Shown piece by piece: positions 8,749 to 16,537 of a DNA stretch of 64,000 nt; positions within the stretch are counted from its first letter, which is position 1; every line of letters begins with the position of its first letter. Under the pieces are notes generated by a model, which worked only from the letters and a program-made list of their open reading frames with translations, was not told the DNA's origin and made no database searches. This DNA is from Acidipropionibacterium acidipropionici. Its GTDB lineage: Bacteria > Actinomycetota > Actinomycetes > Propionibacteriales > Propionibacteriaceae. The DNA lies in contig NZ_CP013126.1 of the NCBI RefSeq assembly GCF_001441165.1, forward strand, positions 2,447,551 through 2,511,550, given 5' to 3'. Position numbers and translations under genes: made by a program.

Positions 8749-9192
8749 ATGACCAACCCCCGTGTGGCCAAACTTGCCGATCAGATCAAGGTCGTCGTGG
8801 CCGGCACCCTCGAGCGCCGTGTCAAGGATCCCCGCCTTGGCTTCGTCACCATCACCGACGTCCGGCTCACCGGCGACTCCCGCGAGGCGACCCTCTTCTA
8901 CACGGCGATGGGGTCGGAGGCCGAGCAGGCCTCGACCGCCGCGGCGCTGGAATCCGCCAAGGGCATGCTGCGCTCCACCGTCGGGAAGCGTCTGGGGCTG
9001 CGCTACGCGCCGACCCTCACCTTCGTGCGCGACGCCACAGCCGAGACCGCCAAGTCCATCGAGGACCTGCTGGCCCGTGCCGCGGCCTCCGACGCGCAGG
9101 TCGCGGCACAGGCGGTCGGCGCCTCCCACGCGGGGGATGCCGACCCGTACCGGCACCGCGAGGACGAGGAGTCCGAGGACACCGAGTCCTGA
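8749..9192 (+). CDS. rbfA: 30S ribosome-binding factor RbfA
   Basis: A 147-residue RbfA, a KH-fold protein that binds the 30S subunit near 16S helix 1 during cold-sensitive maturation. The signature [20 protein letters not shown] and the central [15 protein letters not shown] are present, with a short acidic C-terminal tail ([10 protein letters not shown]). The start at 8749 follows AGGAGCTAGGAG. A candidate -10, TAGCCT, lies at 8688-8693, so the gene has its own promoter and is not simply expressed from infB. It converges on the dehydrogenase gene at the end of the polyol PTS operon with no gap, since the two stops are adjacent. Confidence 0.95.
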
Positions 9193-10584
9193 TCAGGCCC
9201 ACAGGTCGGCGAGGCCGCCGGTGCCGGGGGTGAAGATCTCGTTGACGATGTCGGTGAACCAGCCGGCTTCGCGGGCGACGTCCAGGACGGTGTAGCGGGA
9301 GCGGTAGTACATGGCTTTCGGGAAGGTGTCGCGGACGTCGTCGATGGTCAGGCCGATGTCCTCGGGCCGGTGCGGGGCGCCGGCGGCTGCCAGTTTGGCG
9401 GCGAACTCGCGGGTCGGCACGAGCTGCTCGCGCAACCGGGGCAGGGTCCAGGGCCAGGCATCGGCGATGCGCCGCAGCCGGGCGGAGAGCTCTGCGGGGG
9501 TGACGTACTTGACGTGGGTCTCGGCGACGGCGTGGTCGGCCAGGGCTCCGGTGAAGCGGGTGCGGATGTCGGCCTCGACGGCGTCCCAGGCGGGCCACTG
9601 GGCCACCGCGGCGTCGATATCGAGGGCGGTGATGTCGCGCTCCAGGAATTTCTCGTAGAAGGCGAGCATGGCCAGGGTGCCGATGGCGACCTTGAATCCG
9701 TGGGAGGGCGGGGCCTCCTTGTCGGCGCCGAGGTGGCCGAGTTCCCAGATGTGGGAGAAGTAGTGCTCGGCGCCGGAGGCGGGGCGGGTGCCGTCGTAGA
9801 CCTGCATGGCCAGGCCCGACAGGATGAGTCCCTCGACCAGTCCGGTGTAGGCCTCGGGGATGCCGGCGGCCAGGTCGTCGGGATGTGCCAGTGCCTGGTG
9901 GACTCCGGACTGGACCAGCTCCCAGACCTGGTCGTTGATCGGCTCGACGCCGGCGGCGTCGGCCAGGATCCAGTCGGCTCCACCGGGGATCTTGGCGGCG
10001 AGGTCGCCATAGCCGGAGGCGGTCATCGCGGCCGGGGCCGCCGCGGCGACGTCGAGGTCGAAGATGACGACCTTGGGGGCGACGCAGTTCACGGTCACCT
10101 TGACGCCGTTGTCGGAGATGGGGGCTCCGGCGCCGGTGTAGCCGTCCATGGAGGCGGCGGTGCCGACCACCCCGTACCGGCGTCCCAGATCCTTGGCGGC
10201 CAGTTTGGTGAGGTCGTTGATGGTGCCCGAGCCGATGGCCACCGGGACGACACGGGCGCCGGTCTCCTTGTCGAGGGCGAGCAGCCGCTCGGCGATGCTG
10301 TGGGCGTTGTCGAGGGACGCATAGGGGATCGGGTGGGCGGAGAAGATGTACGGCTGGGTCATTGGCACGCCGGCGATCTCGAGGGACTCGGCGACCGTCC
10401 TGCCGGCGGCGCGCCAGGTCAATGCGTCGGCGACGATCAGGACCGGCGCCGTGCTCCCATCGGCCTGTTCGGCCAGGGCGTCGGCGATGATGGTGCCGGT
10501 GCGGGACAGGATGCCGCGGCCGACCTCGACGACGTCGGTGTCGCCTGCTCCTGCCAGGGCTGCTGCGATGATCTCGTCACTCAT
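9193..10584 (-). CDS. AraM/sn-glycerol-1-phosphate dehydrogenase-like polyol-phosphate dehydrogenase
   Basis: A 463-residue member of the iron-containing alcohol dehydrogenase superfamily, G1PDH/AraM branch. It shows the nucleotide-binding GSGTINDLTK, the metal-ligand aspartate region ASMDGYTGAG, and the metal-ligand histidines in GAEHYFSH and PPSHGF. Members use NAD(P)H and Zn, Ni or Fe. B. subtilis AraM makes glycerol-1-phosphate. As the last gene of a glucitol-type PTS operon, overlapping the HPr-like gene by ATGA, its likely role here is oxidation of the imported polyol phosphate; E. coli instead uses the SDR enzyme SrlD for sorbitol 6-phosphate. It is about 70 residues longer than B. subtilis AraM as I recall it. 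The true substrate (sorbitol, ribitol, arabitol or xylitol phosphate, or DHAP) is open. Confidence 0.75.
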   Translation of the reverse strand: MSDEIIAAALAGAGDTDVVEVGRGILSRTGTIIADALAEQADGSTAPVLIVADALTWRAAGRTVAESLEIAGVPMTQPYIFSAHPIPYASLDNAHSIAERLLALDKETGARVVPVAIGSGTINDLTKLAAKDLGRRYGVVGTAASMDGYTGAGAPISDNGVKVTVNCVAPKVVIFDLDVAAAAPAAMTASGYGDLAAKIPGGADWILADAAGVEPINDQVWELVQSGVHQALAHPDDLAAGIPEAYTGLVEGLILSGLAMQVYDGTRPASGAEHYFSHIWELGHLGADKEAPPSHGFKVAIGTLAMLAFYEKFLERDITALDIDAAVAQWPAWDAVEADIRTRFTGALADHAVAETHVKYVTPAELSARLRRIADAWPWTLPRLREQLVPTREFAAKLAAAGAPHRPEDIGLTIDDVRDTFPKAMYYRSRYTVLDVAREAGWFTDIVNEIFTPGTGGLADLWA

Positions 10585-10868
10585 GTCAATGTCCTTCGCG
10601 GATTCGTGGGATCGGGTTCGGCCCTCAGGAAGGCGCCGATGTCGGTGAGGGCCTCGGCCTCGTCGGGGCCGTCGGCCAGCAGCTCGACGGTCTCGCCGTG
10701 GTTGACGTCGAGCCCCAGCAGGTCCGCCAGCCTGGTGAGGCTGGCGGTCCCGCGGGAGGTGCGGATGAACACGCTGGAGCTGAACCGGGAGGCCCGCAGC
10801 ACCGCCCGGGCGGCGATGCGGGCATGGATCCCGGCCGGGTGCCCGATCCGCAGGGAGAGTCGGATCAC
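10581..10868 (-). CDS. HPr-like PTS phosphocarrier encoded in the polyol PTS operon
   Basis: A 95-residue HPr-family protein. The phosphorylatable histidine falls at the canonical position 15 in HPAGIHARIAARAV, but the usual HARPA motif is HARIA: the proline after Arg17 is isoleucine. The region around the regulatory Ser46 site reads TASLTRLADLLGLDV, keeping a serine in roughly the right place. It starts at GTG 10868, overlapping the EIIA stop (GTGA), and its own stop overlaps the dehydrogenase ATG. A dedicated HPr within a glucitol PTS operon suggests either a private phosphoryl relay or a regulatory paralog. The general HPr gene is not in this window. HPr fold: confident. Activity: inferred. 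Confidence 0.8.
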   Translation of the reverse strand: MIRLSLRIGHPAGIHARIAARAVLRASRFSSSVFIRTSRGTASLTRLADLLGLDVNHGETVELLADGPDEAEALTDIGAFLRAEPDPTNPRRTLT

Positions 10869-11233
10869 GCCGACTCCACCGCGATCGTGCTGCCCTGGCG
10901 CAGCGTCGGGAGCGCGGCCTGCGCGCTCACGTGAATGGCACCGGACAGCCGGGGCTCGGCGGCTCCGTCGAAGACCAGGGTGACGTGGCCCAGGGCGTCC
11001 AGATTCTTCTGGGCGACGTCGCCGATCGCAGTGATCGGATACCGTGCGCCGTCCAGCACCAGGGCATCGCCCACCGAGATGGCGCCGGTGCTGGTGGCGG
11101 GGGGCAGCGCGTAGCAGAAATCCCTCAGCTCCTCGGGGGCCTGGTCGCCGAAGGTCACGAGCATCCGCTCGGCCAGGAAGGAGGCGGCCTCGGGGCCCAC
11201 GGAACGGACGGTGTTGGCGTAGATGACGGTCAT
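10865..11233 (-). CDS. PTS glucitol/sorbitol-type EIIA component, likely without the catalytic histidine
   Basis: A 122-residue protein of the EIIA-Gut family. The conserved ends are clear: MTVIYANTVRSVGPEA at the N-terminus, VTFGDQAPEELRDFCY in the middle, and ITAIGDVAQKNLDALGHVTL in the C-terminal half. From memory, E. coli SrlB has its phosphohistidine at position 43, just after the FCF segment. Here the aligned stretch reads FCYALPPATSTG and has no histidine; the only histidines are in LGHVTL (83) and AIHVSA (101). The ATG at 11233 is preceded by GAGAATTCGGAGCTTCC. A longer frame running upstream into the EIIBC gene is not coding. It lies between EIIBC (35-bp gap) and the HPr-like gene (4-bp overlap). 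Confidence 0.85.
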   Translation of the reverse strand: MTVIYANTVRSVGPEAASFLAERMLVTFGDQAPEELRDFCYALPPATSTGAISVGDALVLDGARYPITAIGDVAQKNLDALGHVTLVFDGAAEPRLSGAIHVSAQAALPTLRQGSTIAVESA

Positions 11234-11268
11234 GGAAGCTCCGAATTCTCGTCGTGTCTCAGATGATG

Positions 11269-12354
11269 TCAGGAAGTCGTGGAGTACAGGCCGATACTGG
11301 CCAGCCAGGCGATGGCCACCCGTGGTGCGCCGTTGAGGAAGCGCGAGTACAGCACCGACGGCACTCCCACCTCGACCGTCTCGGCCTTGGCCTCGGCCAG
11401 GCCGAGACCGACCGGGATGAAGTCGCAGGCGTTCTGGGTGTTGATGGCGAACAGGGCGGGCAGGGCGAGGCTCGGATGGATGTTGCCCTTGCCGATCTCC
11501 ACGCCGATGAGGGTGCCGATGATCTGGCCGATCACCGCGCCGGGGCCCAGCAGGGGGGAGAGGAAGGGCAGGGAGCAGATGAGTCCCAGCACGATGAGTC
11601 CGATGCCCGACCCGGCCAGCGGCGTCAGCAGCTTGGTGAACCAGTTGCCGAAGCCTGAGGCGTTGATGATGCCGATGAGCATGGCCACGAATCCCATGAA
11701 GGGGATCACTGTGGTGAGCATGGCCTGGACGGCGTCGCGCGCGGCCTGGTAGAAGGCCGCGATGACGTGGCCGGCGCCCAGGCCGATCTTCTCCATCAGG
11801 GTCTTGTTCTTCTTCTGGGCGACGGTCTCCGAGATCTTCTTGTCGGTGGACCACTGGCCCTGCACGGTGCCGGCAGTGCCCGCCCTGGTGCCCGACTCGG
11901 CGGAATCCCCCTGGGCGGCGGGGGCGGCCTGGACGGGCTGGGCGGTCGGTGCCGTCATGGCGGCGTCCCCGGCCAGGGCGACCTGGTCGACGTCGACTGC
12001 CGAGACATAGATGGACTCGTTGATGTACTGGGCCAGCGGGCCGGTCTTGCCGGTCGGCATGACGTTGATGGTGGGGATGCCCTTGCGCGGGTAGATCCCG
12101 CAGCGCAGGGTGCCCCCGCAGTCGATGATGACGGCCATCATCTGGTCGTCCGGCACCGAGGTGTTGAAACCGTTGACGGGCTCCGCCCCGGTGAGTTCGG
12201 CGATCCGGTCGACCACCGGCGGGCGCATCCCGCCGCCGACGATGTAGACGAGCTTGTCCTTCTCGGGGGTGGGGGTGAGGGTGAGGGGACCGCCGTAGCC
12301 GCCGGATCCCTTCGAGACGGTCACGGAGTGGAATTCGCGCATGGACTCGGACAT
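11269..12354 (-). CDS. PTS glucitol/sorbitol-type EIIB-EIIC2 component
   Basis: A 361-residue GutE/SrlE-type subunit. The N-terminal IIB domain (about 30-140) carries the phospho-cysteine context [17 protein letters not shown]. An Ala/Pro/Gln linker (about 145-175) joins it to a membrane domain (about 195-361) with four to five hydrophobic segments (for example [20 protein letters not shown]) and the conserved [20 protein letters not shown] region. With the EIIC gene four bases upstream it forms the membrane transporter that imports and phosphorylates a hexitol or pentitol. Gut-family PTSs are not restricted to sorbitol; ribitol and xylitol systems of Lactobacillus belong to the same family. 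The IIB catalytic cysteine is intact, unlike the EIIA histidine. Confidence 0.9.
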
Positions 12355-12358
12355 GGTC

Positions 12359-12937
12359 TCAGGCCTCCACGAGCTTGCTGGCGTGGACGATCTCGCCGTC
12401 CATGGTCCGGGGCAGGGTGACTCCCTGCTGCTTGCTGACGTATCGGGTCGTGAGGTCGGTGATCCAGCCGCCGACGAAGTTGAGCACGAGCCCGACCAGC
12501 AGGTACCTGATGGCCAGCGGGCCGGTCGGCAGGCCGGCCTTGGTGATGCCCTGGGCGATGCCGAGCCAGATGAACAGCTCCGCCGGGTTGATGTGCGGGA
12601 AGATGCCGTTGCTGGTGTGGCAGAACTGGGCCGCCGAGGCGAAGTAGCTGGGCTTGTAGCGCTCCGGGAGGAAGCGGCCCAGCGAGTGGACCATCGGGTT
12701 GCACAGCATGAACGAGCCGAGGAAGGGCAGCAGGAGGTAGCGGCTGACGATGTTGCCGCCGGCCTTCTCCGCGAACTTGTTGATCCGGTCCTCGCCGATG
12801 AGCTGGATGAGCGAGTTCATGGCGATGAGCAGCATGAGCACCAGGGGCACGATGCTGCCCATCCAGTCGATGAAGGTCTTGGCACCTTCCTGGAACAGGC
12901 CGACGAACCATTCGGCGGCCTTGACCACGTAGTTCAT
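12359..12937 (-). CDS. PTS glucitol/sorbitol-type EIIC component
   Basis: A 192-residue GutA/SrlA-type integral membrane subunit, N-terminal half of the polyol permease. It has three to four hydrophobic segments ([20 protein letters not shown], then around 66-85 and 120-160) and the family segment [20 protein letters not shown], followed by [16 protein letters not shown]. The ATG at 12937 is chosen for the clear ribosome-binding site AAGGAGAGG just upstream on the minus strand. An open frame extends far upstream but lies antisense and out of context. A 122-bp gap separates it from gutM, the largest gap in the operon. Confidence 0.9.
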
Positions 12938-13059
12938 GGTCCTCTCCTTTCTTGTGGGTGTGTTTCCTGTAGGTGCGTTGCGCGCCGGTCGGCCCTGCAG
13001 CGAGGGGAGAAGGGCGCACTCACCCGACGCACCGGCGTCGATGCGTGTCGGTGGGTGGG

Positions 13060-13563
13060 TCAGCCGGCCAGTGAGCCCCGTCGGCGCACAGTCCTGCGGC
13101 TGGTCCCGGGGGCGGCCGGAGAATGTGCCCGCCCGACCTTGGAGTCGACCCGGTTGATGACCTTCATCAGCGGAGTCGGAGGCTCGACGGGTACACCGCC
13201 CGCCTCGACGGTGAGGTAGTTGTCGCGGGCGTTGGCCACCGCCCTGCGAGTGCTGGCCGACAGGCGGGCCGATGCCGGGTCCAGGTCGCCGACCGCCAGG
13301 CCGTCGAAGGCGTCGAGATCCTTGAACCGGGTCCACACGGTGATCCCGGTCATGACGCGCCCGGTGACGACACGACCCTCGGCGTCGATGAGGAACATCA
13401 CGATGGCCCCCGAGGTGAATGCGTTCTTCTGCTTTCCGATGGCCACCCGGCCGCGGCGTCGCAGCGCGGAGTAGGTCGTCGAGAAGTGCTTCATCTGCCG
13501 CATCGACAGAACGGTGTTGGCGGCGTAGATGACGGCCACGGCCGCCAGGATGGTCCAGAACAC
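13060..13563 (-). CDS. GutM-family glucitol operon regulator
   Basis: A 167-residue member of the GutM/SrlM family, membrane-associated activators encoded in glucitol operons. The N-terminus is a single hydrophobic segment (FWTILAAVAVIYAANTVLS). The family core follows: MRQMKHFSTTYSALRRRGRVAIGK, then a stretch including GAIVMFLIDAEGRV. The C-terminal 30 residues are basic and proline-rich, beyond the usual family length of about 120. It lies between the BglG-type regulator (11-bp gap) and EIIC, the usual setting in Gram-positive glucitol operons. How it acts mechanistically is not well known. Confidence 0.8.
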   Translation of the reverse strand: MFWTILAAVAVIYAANTVLSMRQMKHFSTTYSALRRRGRVAIGKQKNAFTSGAIVMFLIDAEGRVVTGRVMTGITVWTRFKDLDAFDGLAVGDLDPASARLSASTRRAVANARDNYLTVEAGGVPVEPPTPLMKVINRVDSKVGRAHSPAAPGTSRRTVRRRGSLAG

Positions 13564-13574
13564 GGTGTCTCCTG

Positions 13575-15491
13575 TCAGGTGTTCCTGCGGGTGGGATGGT
13601 CGGCCATGAACCAGAACAGCTGCTCGTGGCTGGTGACGCGGCTCAGTGAGGTGATGAGGGCGCGGTCGGAGGCGAGGCGGATGATCTCGTCGTAGACGTC
13701 GATGAGGATGGTGTCGTCGTAGTCCTGCTTGTCGGGCACGCCCATGACGAACACCGCCCGGACCCCGGGCTCATCGATGTGCCGGGGGATGACGCCCATC
13801 GCCAGGACGACACGCTCGGCGCCGGGCACCGTGGCGTGGGGGAATCCCACCAGTTCGTCCAGCAGCATCGAGGAGTCCCGTTCGCGGCGGCGCAGCGCCT
13901 CCCGGAAGGATTCGCCGACCAGGCCCAGCTCCTCGAGCCGGTCGATGAGCGCTGCGGTGGCCCGGTGGTAGTCGGTGCCGGGGGGCAGGGCCATGAACCG
14001 GTCGGCGTCGAGCATGGAGACCAGCAGCGAGGACCCCGCCCCTGCAAGGTTGAGGTCCGCGTAGCGGTGGAGCCGGACCCGGGAGAGCTGGTTGACCAGC
14101 TCATCGCGGTCGAAGACCGCGCCGAGCTCCACGACGGGCGAGGTGAGGGCGCCTCCGGTTCCGGCCAGCGCCCCGGGGGTGGAGACGACCAGGTCGGCGG
14201 CCGTCAGGGCGTCGTCGTCGAGCTGGTCGGCCGACATCATGACGTAGCGGGTGCCCTCGGGCAGGATCCTGGCGAGCTGGATGCGCAGCAGGTGTCCTGA
14301 GACTCGCCCCGCCGAGGTCACCACCGCCACTCTCAGGTGGGTCCGGCGGGAGCGCTCGTGGTGGTCGAGGAAGACCTGGTGGTAACCGGCGAGCAGCCCG
14401 ACCTCGGAGTCGGTGATCCGCAGGCCGGTCCTCTCCTCCAGCACCTGGCGGCTGATCTCTGCCATCTGGTGGGCCACCGGGTACTGGTCGCGGATGTCGG
14501 CCACCGCGTCGTCGTCGAGGTGGATCCTGAACCGCATCCGGCTGAGCATGAAGGTGAGGTGGTGGGCGAACTCGTCGGCCAGCTCGGCGGCCTCCACCTG
14601 CAGGCCCATCACCTCGGTGATGCGGTCGAAGATGGCGTCCACCAGGGCGGGCACGTCCTCGTCGGCGGGGAAGAGCTGGCGACCCTCCTGATCGTCGGGG
14701 GTGCGCATTCCCGCGACCGCCATCGCCATGAAGAGCTGCTCGGTGGGCGGTGGGTCGATCCTCACCAGGGGGGAGATGCCGGCGAGGAGCTCGGCGGCGA
14801 AGTCGTGGGCCGGGGTCCCCTCCAACTCGGAGAACTCGGGCGGCAGCTCTGTCAGCGGATGGCCCGAGAGGTAGCGGTCGAGGAGCATTGTCAGCCAGCG
14901 GAGCACGGTGTGCCGGGAGGATCGGTTGAGGTGACGGGAGGTGCATATCGAGGCAACGGTCTCGGCGATCTCATCGCCCAGCGGGTAGTGGTCGCACAGC
15001 ACCTCGGCGAAGTGGGTGAGCCCGGCCATCCGCAGATCCAGTTCGGAGCCCTCCAGACGAATGCCGCTGTTGGTGCGGCCGGTGATGGTGACGTCGTGGC
15101 CGGCCAGAGTCTCCCGGAGCGCCGCCAGGTCGGTGGTGGCGGTGGTCCGCGAGACCGACAGGCGGGAGGCCAGGTCGCCGATCCGCACCGGGCCGGCGGC
15201 CCGCAGCAGCGCCCGGTAGATCAGGGCCCGCCGGTGAGCCGGGTCATTGAGGGACTCGTCGGCGTCCAGCAGGGCCTGGCGGATCTCGCCGTAGCGGCGC
15301 GCGTCGAGGATGTAGAGCCGGTAGCGGCCGTCGACCAGACGTACCGAGGCTGCGGTGCCGAGCATCGCGTCGAGTCGCGCGACGGCGTTCACGATGCTCC
15401 GGGTGCCCAGGTCGAGCTGGGCCGCCAGGCCGTCCGGGGTCGCCGCCAGGGCGGTCTCCAGGTGACGCAAGATATGGGTCTCGCGGTTCAT
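13575..15491 (-). CDS. PRD-containing BglG/MtlR-type transcriptional regulator of the polyol PTS
   Basis: A 638-residue modular regulator: tandem N-terminal HTH domains (about 5-60 and 85-145), two PTS-regulation domains (about 180-400), an EIIB-Gat-like domain (about 405-490) and an EIIA-Mtl-like domain with a candidate phosphohistidine in VGFPHA (His about 552). The PTS would phosphorylate these domains to report substrate supply. The EIIB-like module reads VVTSAGRVSGHLL where a cysteine normally follows the second valine, so the phospho-cysteine appears to be lost. It is the first gene of the minus-strand operon, diverging from truB. The start at 15491 is preceded by GGAGGGAGGATTCC. A candidate -10, TACGTT, lies about 45 bases upstream. 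Confidence 0.88.
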   Translation of the reverse strand: MNRETHILRHLETALAATPDGLAAQLDLGTRSIVNAVARLDAMLGTAASVRLVDGRYRLYILDARRYGEIRQALLDADESLNDPAHRRALIYRALLRAAGPVRIGDLASRLSVSRTTATTDLAALRETLAGHDVTITGRTNSGIRLEGSELDLRMAGLTHFAEVLCDHYPLGDEIAETVASICTSRHLNRSSRHTVLRWLTMLLDRYLSGHPLTELPPEFSELEGTPAHDFAAELLAGISPLVRIDPPPTEQLFMAMAVAGMRTPDDQEGRQLFPADEDVPALVDAIFDRITEVMGLQVEAAELADEFAHHLTFMLSRMRFRIHLDDDAVADIRDQYPVAHQMAEISRQVLEERTGLRITDSEVGLLAGYHQVFLDHHERSRRTHLRVAVVTSAGRVSGHLLRIQLARILPEGTRYVMMSADQLDDDALTAADLVVSTPGALAGTGGALTSPVVELGAVFDRDELVNQLSRVRLHRYADLNLAGAGSSLLVSMLDADRFMALPPGTDYHRATAALIDRLEELGLVGESFREALRRRERDSSMLLDELVGFPHATVPGAERVVLAMGVIPRHIDEPGVRAVFVMGVPDKQDYDDTILIDVYDEIIRLASDRALITSLSRVTSHEQLFWFMADHPTRRNT

Positions 15492-15649
15492 GGAATCCTC
15501 CCTCCGGCACCGCTGTCGTTGCTGGACGCCATGAACGTAACAGCGCCGCCCGCTGAAGTCAGCGCCTCATTGATGCAGGGCTTTTCGGGAGTGCGGAAAG
15601 AGTCCGGACCAGCCGCCCGGGTGGCCCGGCAGGGCCGTGATGGGCGAGA

Positions 15650-16537
15650 ATGCGGCTCATGGAATCGGGCCTGCTGATCGTCGACAAACCCCAGGGCTGG
15701 ACCTCCCATCAGGTGGTCGCCCGGGTGCGCCGGCTGCTCGGCACCCGCAAGGTGGGCCACGCCGGGACCCTGGACCCGATGGCCACCGGGGTGCTCGTGG
15801 TGGGGGTGGGCCGGGCCACCCGGCTGCTGGGCCACCTGGCCCTCCACGACAAGGACTACACCGCGACGATCCGGCTCGGCGTCACCACGGTCACCGATGA
15901 CGCCGAGGGAGACGTCCTGGCGGCCGAGGACGCCTCGGGACTGACCGAGGCCGGCATCGGCGAGGCCATGGCTCCGCTGCGGGGCGACATCCTCCAGGTG
16001 CCGACCGCCGTGAGCGCCATCAAGGTGAACGGGCAGCGGGCGTACAAGAGGGTGCGCGCCGGCGAGGACGTGGTGCTGGAGCCCAGGCCGGTGACGGTGT
16101 CGCGGTTCGAGGCGGTCGGAATGCGCCACGACGGGCAGGCGGTCGACGTCGATGTCGAGGTGACCTGCTCGTCGGGCACCTATGTGCGCGCCCTGGCACG
16201 GGATCTGGGGGAGGCGCTGGGGGTCGGCGGCCATCTGACCGCCCTGCGACGCACCCGGATCGGGCCCTATGCCCTGGGTGAGATGCCCGTCGATCTGGCC
16301 GAGGACGCCGCCCGTCCGCGTCTCATGACGATGGCCGACGCCGCCCGTCTCAGTTTCCCGGTGGTCGTGCTGGACGCCGCCCAGGAGGCCGACCTGCGGG
16401 TCGGGAAGAGACTGGAGATCGTCGTCCCCGCCGATCCGACGGCGATGATCTCGGCGGCCACCGGGGAGCTCCTGGCCCTGTACCGGCCCGATGCCGAGCG
16501 CCCCGGCTGGTCACGGGCGGTTGCCGTGCTGGTGTGA
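15650..16537 (+). CDS. truB: tRNA pseudouridine(55) synthase TruB
   Basis: A 295-residue TruB, which isomerises U55 in the T-loop of tRNAs. The start GLLIVDKPQGWTSHQVV and the catalytic aspartate in GHAGTLDPMATGVLVV (about residue 47) are intact. TruB motifs around VGRATRLLGHL and the C-terminal domain follow. The ATG at 15650 and the ATG at 15659 are both plausible; neither has a good Shine-Dalgarno sequence. In most actinobacteria truB directly precedes ribF. Here a toxin-antitoxin pair and tandem repeats separate them. The upstream neighbour is the divergent polyol PTS regulator, where rbfA and a DHH phosphoesterase are often found. Confidence 0.95.
   Translation: MRLMESGLLIVDKPQGWTSHQVVARVRRLLGTRKVGHAGTLDPMATGVLVVGVGRATRLLGHLALHDKDYTATIRLGVTTVTDDAEGDVLAAEDASGLTEAGIGEAMAPLRGDILQVPTAVSAIKVNGQRAYKRVRAGEDVVLEPRPVTVSRFEAVGMRHDGQAVDVDVEVTCSSGTYVRALARDLGEALGVGGHLTALRRTRIGPYALGEMPVDLAEDAARPRLMTMADAARLSFPVVVLDAAQEADLRVGKRLEIVVPADPTAMISAATGELLALYRPDAERPGWSRAVAVLV

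Follow-up and report, generated by a model that had tools for sequence, protein, structure and literature searches.

Glucitol-family phosphotransferase systems (PTS) are known as SrlAEB in Escherichia coli and from the gutFRMCBA operons of plasmids pPP1 of Pediococcus parvulus and pMP118 of L. salivarius, and this paper describes a related operon in a 64,000-nucleotide stretch of the Acidipropionibacterium acidipropionici genome (contig NZ_CP013126.1, positions 2,447,551 to 2,511,550), hereafter called the window. In E. coli the phosphorylated residue of SrlB, the enzyme IIA (EIIA) of the system, is presumably His43, an assignment on which a sequence-only reading of the window was based and which our results neither confirm nor refute directly; no mapping of the Gut EIIA phosphorylation site was found in the literature searched. 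According to excerpts of the study concerned (PMC5723342), P. parvulus 2.6, which carries a gut operon, grew better with sorbitol and consumed it, and strain 2.6NR, in which the operon was shown to be missing, left sorbitol untouched. In Mesorhizobium loti, a glucitol PTS has already been reported to have a general PTS protein as its neighbour (excerpts of PMC2405797).

The window carries on its minus strand, in this order, the genes of a regulator with PTS regulation domains (PRD), GutM, EIIC, EIIB(C), EIIA, an HPr-like protein and a dehydrogenase related to glycerol-1-phosphate dehydrogenase (G1PDH). We hold with good confidence that this is an intact polyol PTS operon of the glucitol family, presumably a working one, in which EIIA would carry its phosphate on His83 and the HPr-like protein would be a specialised phosphocarrier. 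The genes, the residues discussed below, their conservation and the clade formed by the HPr-like proteins are observed features of the genomes compared.

Histidines of EIIA in the window and in the family

Alignment with E. coli SrlB (locus L032, taken from NC_000913.3) places Leu, Pro, His and His of the window EIIA at positions 43, 45, 83 and 101, SrlB having His at all four, and no histidines other than 83 and 101 are found in the window protein, as the sequence-only reading had correctly observed. Loss of His43 through a sequencing error or frameshift was ruled out by the intact frame and by matching residues in relatives, since three genomes of the same genus share them: their EIIAs all have Leu43, His83 and His101 (residue 45 being Pro, Pro and Ala), and their HPr-like proteins have Ile or Val at residue 18. 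The ratio of nonsynonymous to synonymous substitution rates (dN/dS) of EIIA stayed below 1 in all eight pairs compared (0.07 to 0.28), and one named relative, that of contig L031, is 47% identical to the window EIIA.

For the comparison across the family, 107 EIIAs were collected from the window's family (197 genomes, 71 further places) and from the phylum (396 genomes, 21 further places), to which the window, SrlB, contig L031 (identical with contig L059) and 12 plasmid loci were added, the last read out of 58 records with a match; the 107 rows hold four identical pairs, L031/L059 being one. Residue 43 is His in 61 of these proteins; of the other 46, 30 have Ile, 11 have Leu and 5 have Val. 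These 46 include five plasmid-borne EIIAs of Bacilli, four of them beside a gene of the SrlD type; two other Bacilli EIIAs (L158 and L162) have His43. Viral contigs were also searched for further Gut EIIAs, and none were found. His83, in the motif LGHVTL, is present in 106 of the 107, the lone exception (L124) running into N's at this point. Three EIIAs have a single histidine, which aligns with His83: those of P. parvulus (L155, plasmid pPP1, record MF766019, re-translated in its annotated frame), L. salivarius (L156) and P. megaterium (L157).

Missing from 46 of 107 members, His43 does not define the Gut EIIA family at the sequence level, and by the same comparison the window protein is an ordinary Gut EIIA; the absence of His43 here, which had seemed an anomaly because this residue was taken as universal, is none. 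His83 is very probably the phosphoacceptor of the window EIIA, because of its conservation in 106 of 107 proteins and because it corresponds to the sole histidine of the pPP1 EIIA from a sorbitol-linked operon: if a phosphohistidine is used there, only the one aligned with His83 can serve. As far as the excerpted P. parvulus study goes, this EIIA is in essence the active homologue without His43 whose existence, by the terms of the sequence-only reading, would make the missing histidine unremarkable. The only clear relative of EIIA found in the PDB, 2f9h (a PTS IIA of E. faecalis, distant at 34 bits), has a His aligned with residue 83 and none aligned with residue 43. The comparison favours His83 as acceptor in this PTS family, and the assignment of His43 deserves to be tested again.

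An alternative that we consider quite unlikely is that one family uses two acceptor sites, His43 where it is present and otherwise His83 or His101. It would agree with the occurrence of His43 in all 4 gammaproteobacterial EIIAs and 57 others, with the EIIA tree (from which L124 was omitted), where residue 43 changes just twice and the relevant forks have values of 80 to 83 in the Shimodaira-Hasegawa-like approximate likelihood ratio test (SH-aLRT), so that the tree may be compatible with a single origin at this residue, and with the presence of His101 in 40 of the 46 EIIAs that lack His43, compared with 6 of the 61 that have it (46 of 107 in all). A shift of site, however, would not need His83 to be kept without exception in the 61 His43-bearing proteins as well, as it is, and His101 is missing from all five Bacilli EIIAs that lack His43, among them the single-histidine proteins.

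Several points nevertheless weigh against the His83 reading. His101 could, by sequence, serve in the window protein, and His43 may matter where it occurs, even as acceptor. The window EIIA stays under the NCBIfam cut-offs (TIGR00849, 119.5 of 189.55; NF007696, 104.2 of 165), and is, by its profile match, a more distant member of Pfam family PF03829. A structure model of EIIA, built from a two-sequence alignment, was too poor to place His83 (mean predicted local distance difference test score, pLDDT, 48.2) and was not used. Finally, in the excerpts of PMC5723342, sorbitol use is tied to the whole operon rather than to gutA alone, strain 2.6NR had additionally been cured of plasmid pPP2, and P. 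parvulus grew very slowly on sorbitol without glucose.

A clade of HPr variants in gut operons

The HPr-like protein of the window passes the cut-offs of the HPr family profiles PF00381 and, narrowly, TIGR01003. In its motif GIHARIAA it retains His15 and Arg17 and has Ile at residue 18, and it has Arg in the column of Ser46, in agreement with the oddity pointed out in the sequence-only reading, which noted His15 and the Ile in place of Pro18; the peculiarity proved to be wider than this single protein. Twenty-four HPr variants from gut operons of the window's family lie on one side of a branch that separates them from 30 other HPr proteins (support 100/99), in a tree built without columns 17 and 18. 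The counts omit L147, which is the window's HPr again, and the trees also omit L150_503, a copy of L146. A further set of HPr proteins, not selected by Pro18, served as control and came from a sample of loci in 60 genomes of the class: 28 class loci and the two other HPr proteins of the window genome were read, the window's own HPr was omitted, and three further places of the class sample had no locus and are not in the count.

Pro18 is found in none of the 24 variants, which have Val (14), Ile (6), Leu (2), Ala (1) or Met (1) at this residue; the motif H-R-P (HARP) is found in 30 of 30 control proteins. All 24 keep His15, and 13 keep Arg17, a residue of HPr important for phosphotransfer. The column of Ser46, the site of HPr kinase, holds Ser in 5 of the 24 variants versus all 30 proteins on the other side of the branch; according to excerpts of PMC2405797, HPr kinase is absent from Actinobacteria. 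Residues 17 and 20 covary in all 24 variants, Arg17 occurring with Ala or Leu20, and Leu or Gln17 with His or Gln20; a statistical claim for this coupling was dropped, as the tree holds just two changes and at most two independent pairs. Measured by domain ends, 22 of the 24 variants start 23 to 34 bases behind EIIA and on its strand; the remaining two are oppositely oriented and adjoin the G1PDH-like gene. In the window, the EIIA stop and the HPr-like start overlap by four bases (GTGA), and the HPr-like stop overlaps the start of the dehydrogenase gene (ATGA). The literature searched yielded no description of a gut-operon HPr without Pro18.

By these sequence criteria the variant is real and conserved, and it is most likely a putative dedicated phosphocarrier of the gut operon. 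Its dN/dS ranged from 0.16 to 0.68 over the eight pairs, never reaching 1, and exceeded that of EIIA and EIIB in every one. The higher values could suggest a gene that is decaying and functionless, a reading that we regard as very unlikely in view of the ratios below 1, the readable frame and His15 in 24 of 24 variants, and the four-base overlaps at both ends of the window gene. A regulatory task, in which the protein would act on the PRD regulator or as a brake and not as donor for EIIA, is a more substantial although still somewhat doubtful alternative: a PRD regulator gene is present at 24 of 24 variant loci, and the alteration of Pro18 and often of Arg17, as well as the raised dN/dS, would be in keeping with it, but the position directly after EIIA at 22 loci and the invariance of His15 speak against it. 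The absence of Arg17 from 11 of the 24 variants and the dN/dS values also count against the donor role as such. Nevertheless, donation of phosphate to its own EIIA appears the likeliest function of the HPr-like protein.

Because the variants form one nested clade, they are absent from all 61 loci with His43, and all 24 of them accompany an EIIA without it. The link hinted at in the sequence-only reading, between a missing His43 and an HPr encoded in the operon, fails as a rule, and the proposition that an EIIA without His43 requires a resident HPr was rejected: the variant is missing in the stretch read for 22 of the 46 EIIAs that lack His43, including all five from Bacilli, and 20 of the 61 His43 loci also have an HPr or HPr domain there. 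Within the window's family, the 40 loci without His43 (a number that includes the window and takes L031 and L059 as two) comprise 24 with the variant, 7 with a canonical HPr alone and 9 for which the stretch read shows no HPr; of these nine, L067 breaks off directly behind EIIA. Likewise no HPr was seen in the stretch read at L125, elsewhere in the phylum, and at the five Bacilli loci. Since 22 of 46 do without it, the HPr-like protein is neither necessary nor a general replacement for His43. The same figures bear on the idea that EIIA is an unphosphorylated scaffold and that the HPr-like protein passes phosphate directly to EIIB. The overlap of its gene with EIIA and the retention of His15 in all variants would accord with this, but the invariant His83, the 22 EIIAs without a nearby variant and the 9 family loci without any HPr over the stretch read make it scarcely credible.

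Predicted route of phosphate

The components of an ordinary route are all present. EIIB and EIIC of the window pass the curated NCBI cut-offs for glucitol PTS (NF049924 and NF049923), and the EIIB cysteine, which the sequence-only reading had rightly described as kept, is C79, found in 83 of 89 aligned EIIB rows, that is, in all 83 that are ungapped, the remaining 6 having a gap (E. coli SrlE lies outside the row set). Elsewhere in the 3.65-Mb host genome, profile matches identified enzyme I (EI) and two further HPr genes: an HPr gene followed by EI at about 152 kb, and a second HPr gene after an apparent PTS membrane protein at 546 kb. A second match to PF02896, at about 269 kb, is presumably pyruvate phosphate dikinase. 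Of the two routes hinted at earlier, the use of another histidine is thus borne out by His83, and a non-standard route of phosphate finds no support, as EI, canonical HPr, EIIA, the EIIB cysteine and EIIC are all there.

Each phosphotransfer step is inferred, as are the substrate and the function of the HPr-like protein. Phosphate would pass from phosphoenolpyruvate to EI, encoded elsewhere, and on to an HPr, from there to His83 of EIIA and Cys79 of EIIB, and finally to a polyol entering via EIIC and EIIBC; the G1PDH-like enzyme encoded in the operon would then probably oxidise the polyol phosphate. The HPr-like protein, with His15 kept and Pro18 lost, would most likely be an extra donor for EIIA and less likely one for the PRD regulator, and His43 would be a trait of only part of the Gut EIIA family. 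More tentatively, and with distinctly less than even expectation, two stronger statements may hold together: that His83 is the phosphohistidine throughout the family, E. coli SrlB included, the database assignment of His43 being wrong, and that the HPr of the window's family, with its rebuilt active centre (Pro18 gone, residues 17 and 20 exchanged), feeds its own EIIA alone. The variants constitute a natural series in which the phosphohistidine is kept without Pro18 and partly without Arg17, which makes them useful for studying the roles of these residues and for exploring how a carrier comes to serve a single transporter.

Operon surroundings and relation to known systems

The features of the operon are collected in Table 1. 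The dehydrogenase scored 131.4 bits against the G1PDH model NF002022, below the cut-off of 413, and is related to that family without being an assigned member; it is a candidate polyol-phosphate dehydrogenase, and the G1PDH-like enzyme probably replaces sorbitol-6-phosphate dehydrogenase (SrlD). A G1PDH-like gene without a same-strand SrlD-type gene was found at 31 of the 46 loci without His43 (4 of these have an SrlD-type gene on the other strand); a same-strand SrlD-type gene only was found at 10, both at 2 and neither at 3.

Table 1. Features of the gut operon, with positions in the window
Feature	Position	Strand	Basis
PRD-type transcriptional regulator (GutR-like), helix-turn-helix (HTH), PRD and weak EIIA_2-like domain	13575..15491	-	Pfam HTH_11, PRD, PTS_EIIA_2; position shared by related loci
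GutM	13060..13563	-	PF06923, 93.4 bits
EIIC (SrlA-type)	12359..12937	-	Start set at ATG of MNYVVK; PF03608, 259.8 bits; NF049923, 312 bits (cut-off 150)
EIIB(C) (SrlE-type), cysteine C79	11269..12354	-	PF03612, PF07663; NF049924, 509.9 bits (cut-off 400)
EIIA (SrlB/GutA-type), 122 aa	10865..11233	-	PF03829, 119.1 bits (cut-off 25); residues via E. coli SrlB alignment
His83 codon (LGHVTL), putative phosphoacceptor	10985..10987	-	Codon read; conservation in EIIA alignment
HPr-like protein, 95 aa, GIHARIAA	10581..10868	-	PF00381, 67.2 bits (cut-off 23); TIGR01003, 48.8 bits (cut-off 47.9)
Iron-containing alcohol dehydrogenase related to G1PDH	9193..10584	-	PF13685, 91.2 bits; best PDB match 9h4x

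The weak EIIA_2-like domain of the PRD regulator (36 bits) is C-terminal, and the regulator may be a target of the operon's own HPr. The operon sits between rbfA and truB, in opposite orientation to both (window 8749-16537): the rbfA stop at 9192 abuts the end of the dehydrogenase gene at 9193, and truB extends from 15650. In 8 of the 12 genomes read at this place, including L194 of the same genus, which has no Gut EIIA, truB adjoins rbfA, and in the other 4, the window's own among them, the dehydrogenase gene does. At other loci (L132, L133, L136, L137, L142, L143, L145 and L160) EIIB matches extend over at least two open reading frames, which suggests split EIIB genes. Besides these, at six loci (L097, L099, L100, L101, L111 and L116) canonical HPr and EI come after a Gut EIIA that has His43, and the stretch contains no match to EIIB or EIIC; the EIIA of these loci is possibly regulatory or an orphan.

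Compared with E. coli SrlAEB, the window shares the EIIC, EIIB(C) and EIIA kinds, with His83 and His101 of EIIA aligned, whereas the E. coli system has His43 and His45 in EIIA and the short-chain dehydrogenase/reductase (SDR) SrlD in place of the G1PDH-like enzyme; its stretch, as read, holds neither an HPr nor a match to the PRD regulator of the window. The gutFRMCBA operons share the order regulator, GutM, EIIC, EIIB, EIIA, the absence of His43 and the presence of His83, but differ in an SrlD-type dehydrogenase placed before the regulator, in the lack of an HPr over the stretch read and in an EIIA without His101. A general PTS protein next to a glucitol PTS, as in the window, occurs in M. 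loti, known here from an excerpted description, and on a Terrarubrum plasmid (L159:4876-6816), but in both the HPr domain is fused to EI, and the Terrarubrum protein keeps the HARP motif. Specialised relatives of HPr include FPr, NPr, Crh and DhaM. The window variant has the HPr family, His15 and a small single domain in common with such relatives, Crh having Gln at residue 15; the variants differ from them in the loss of Pro18 (24 of 24) and of Arg17 (11 of 24), in a Ser46 column that is not Ser in 19 of 24, and in their linkage to gut operons.

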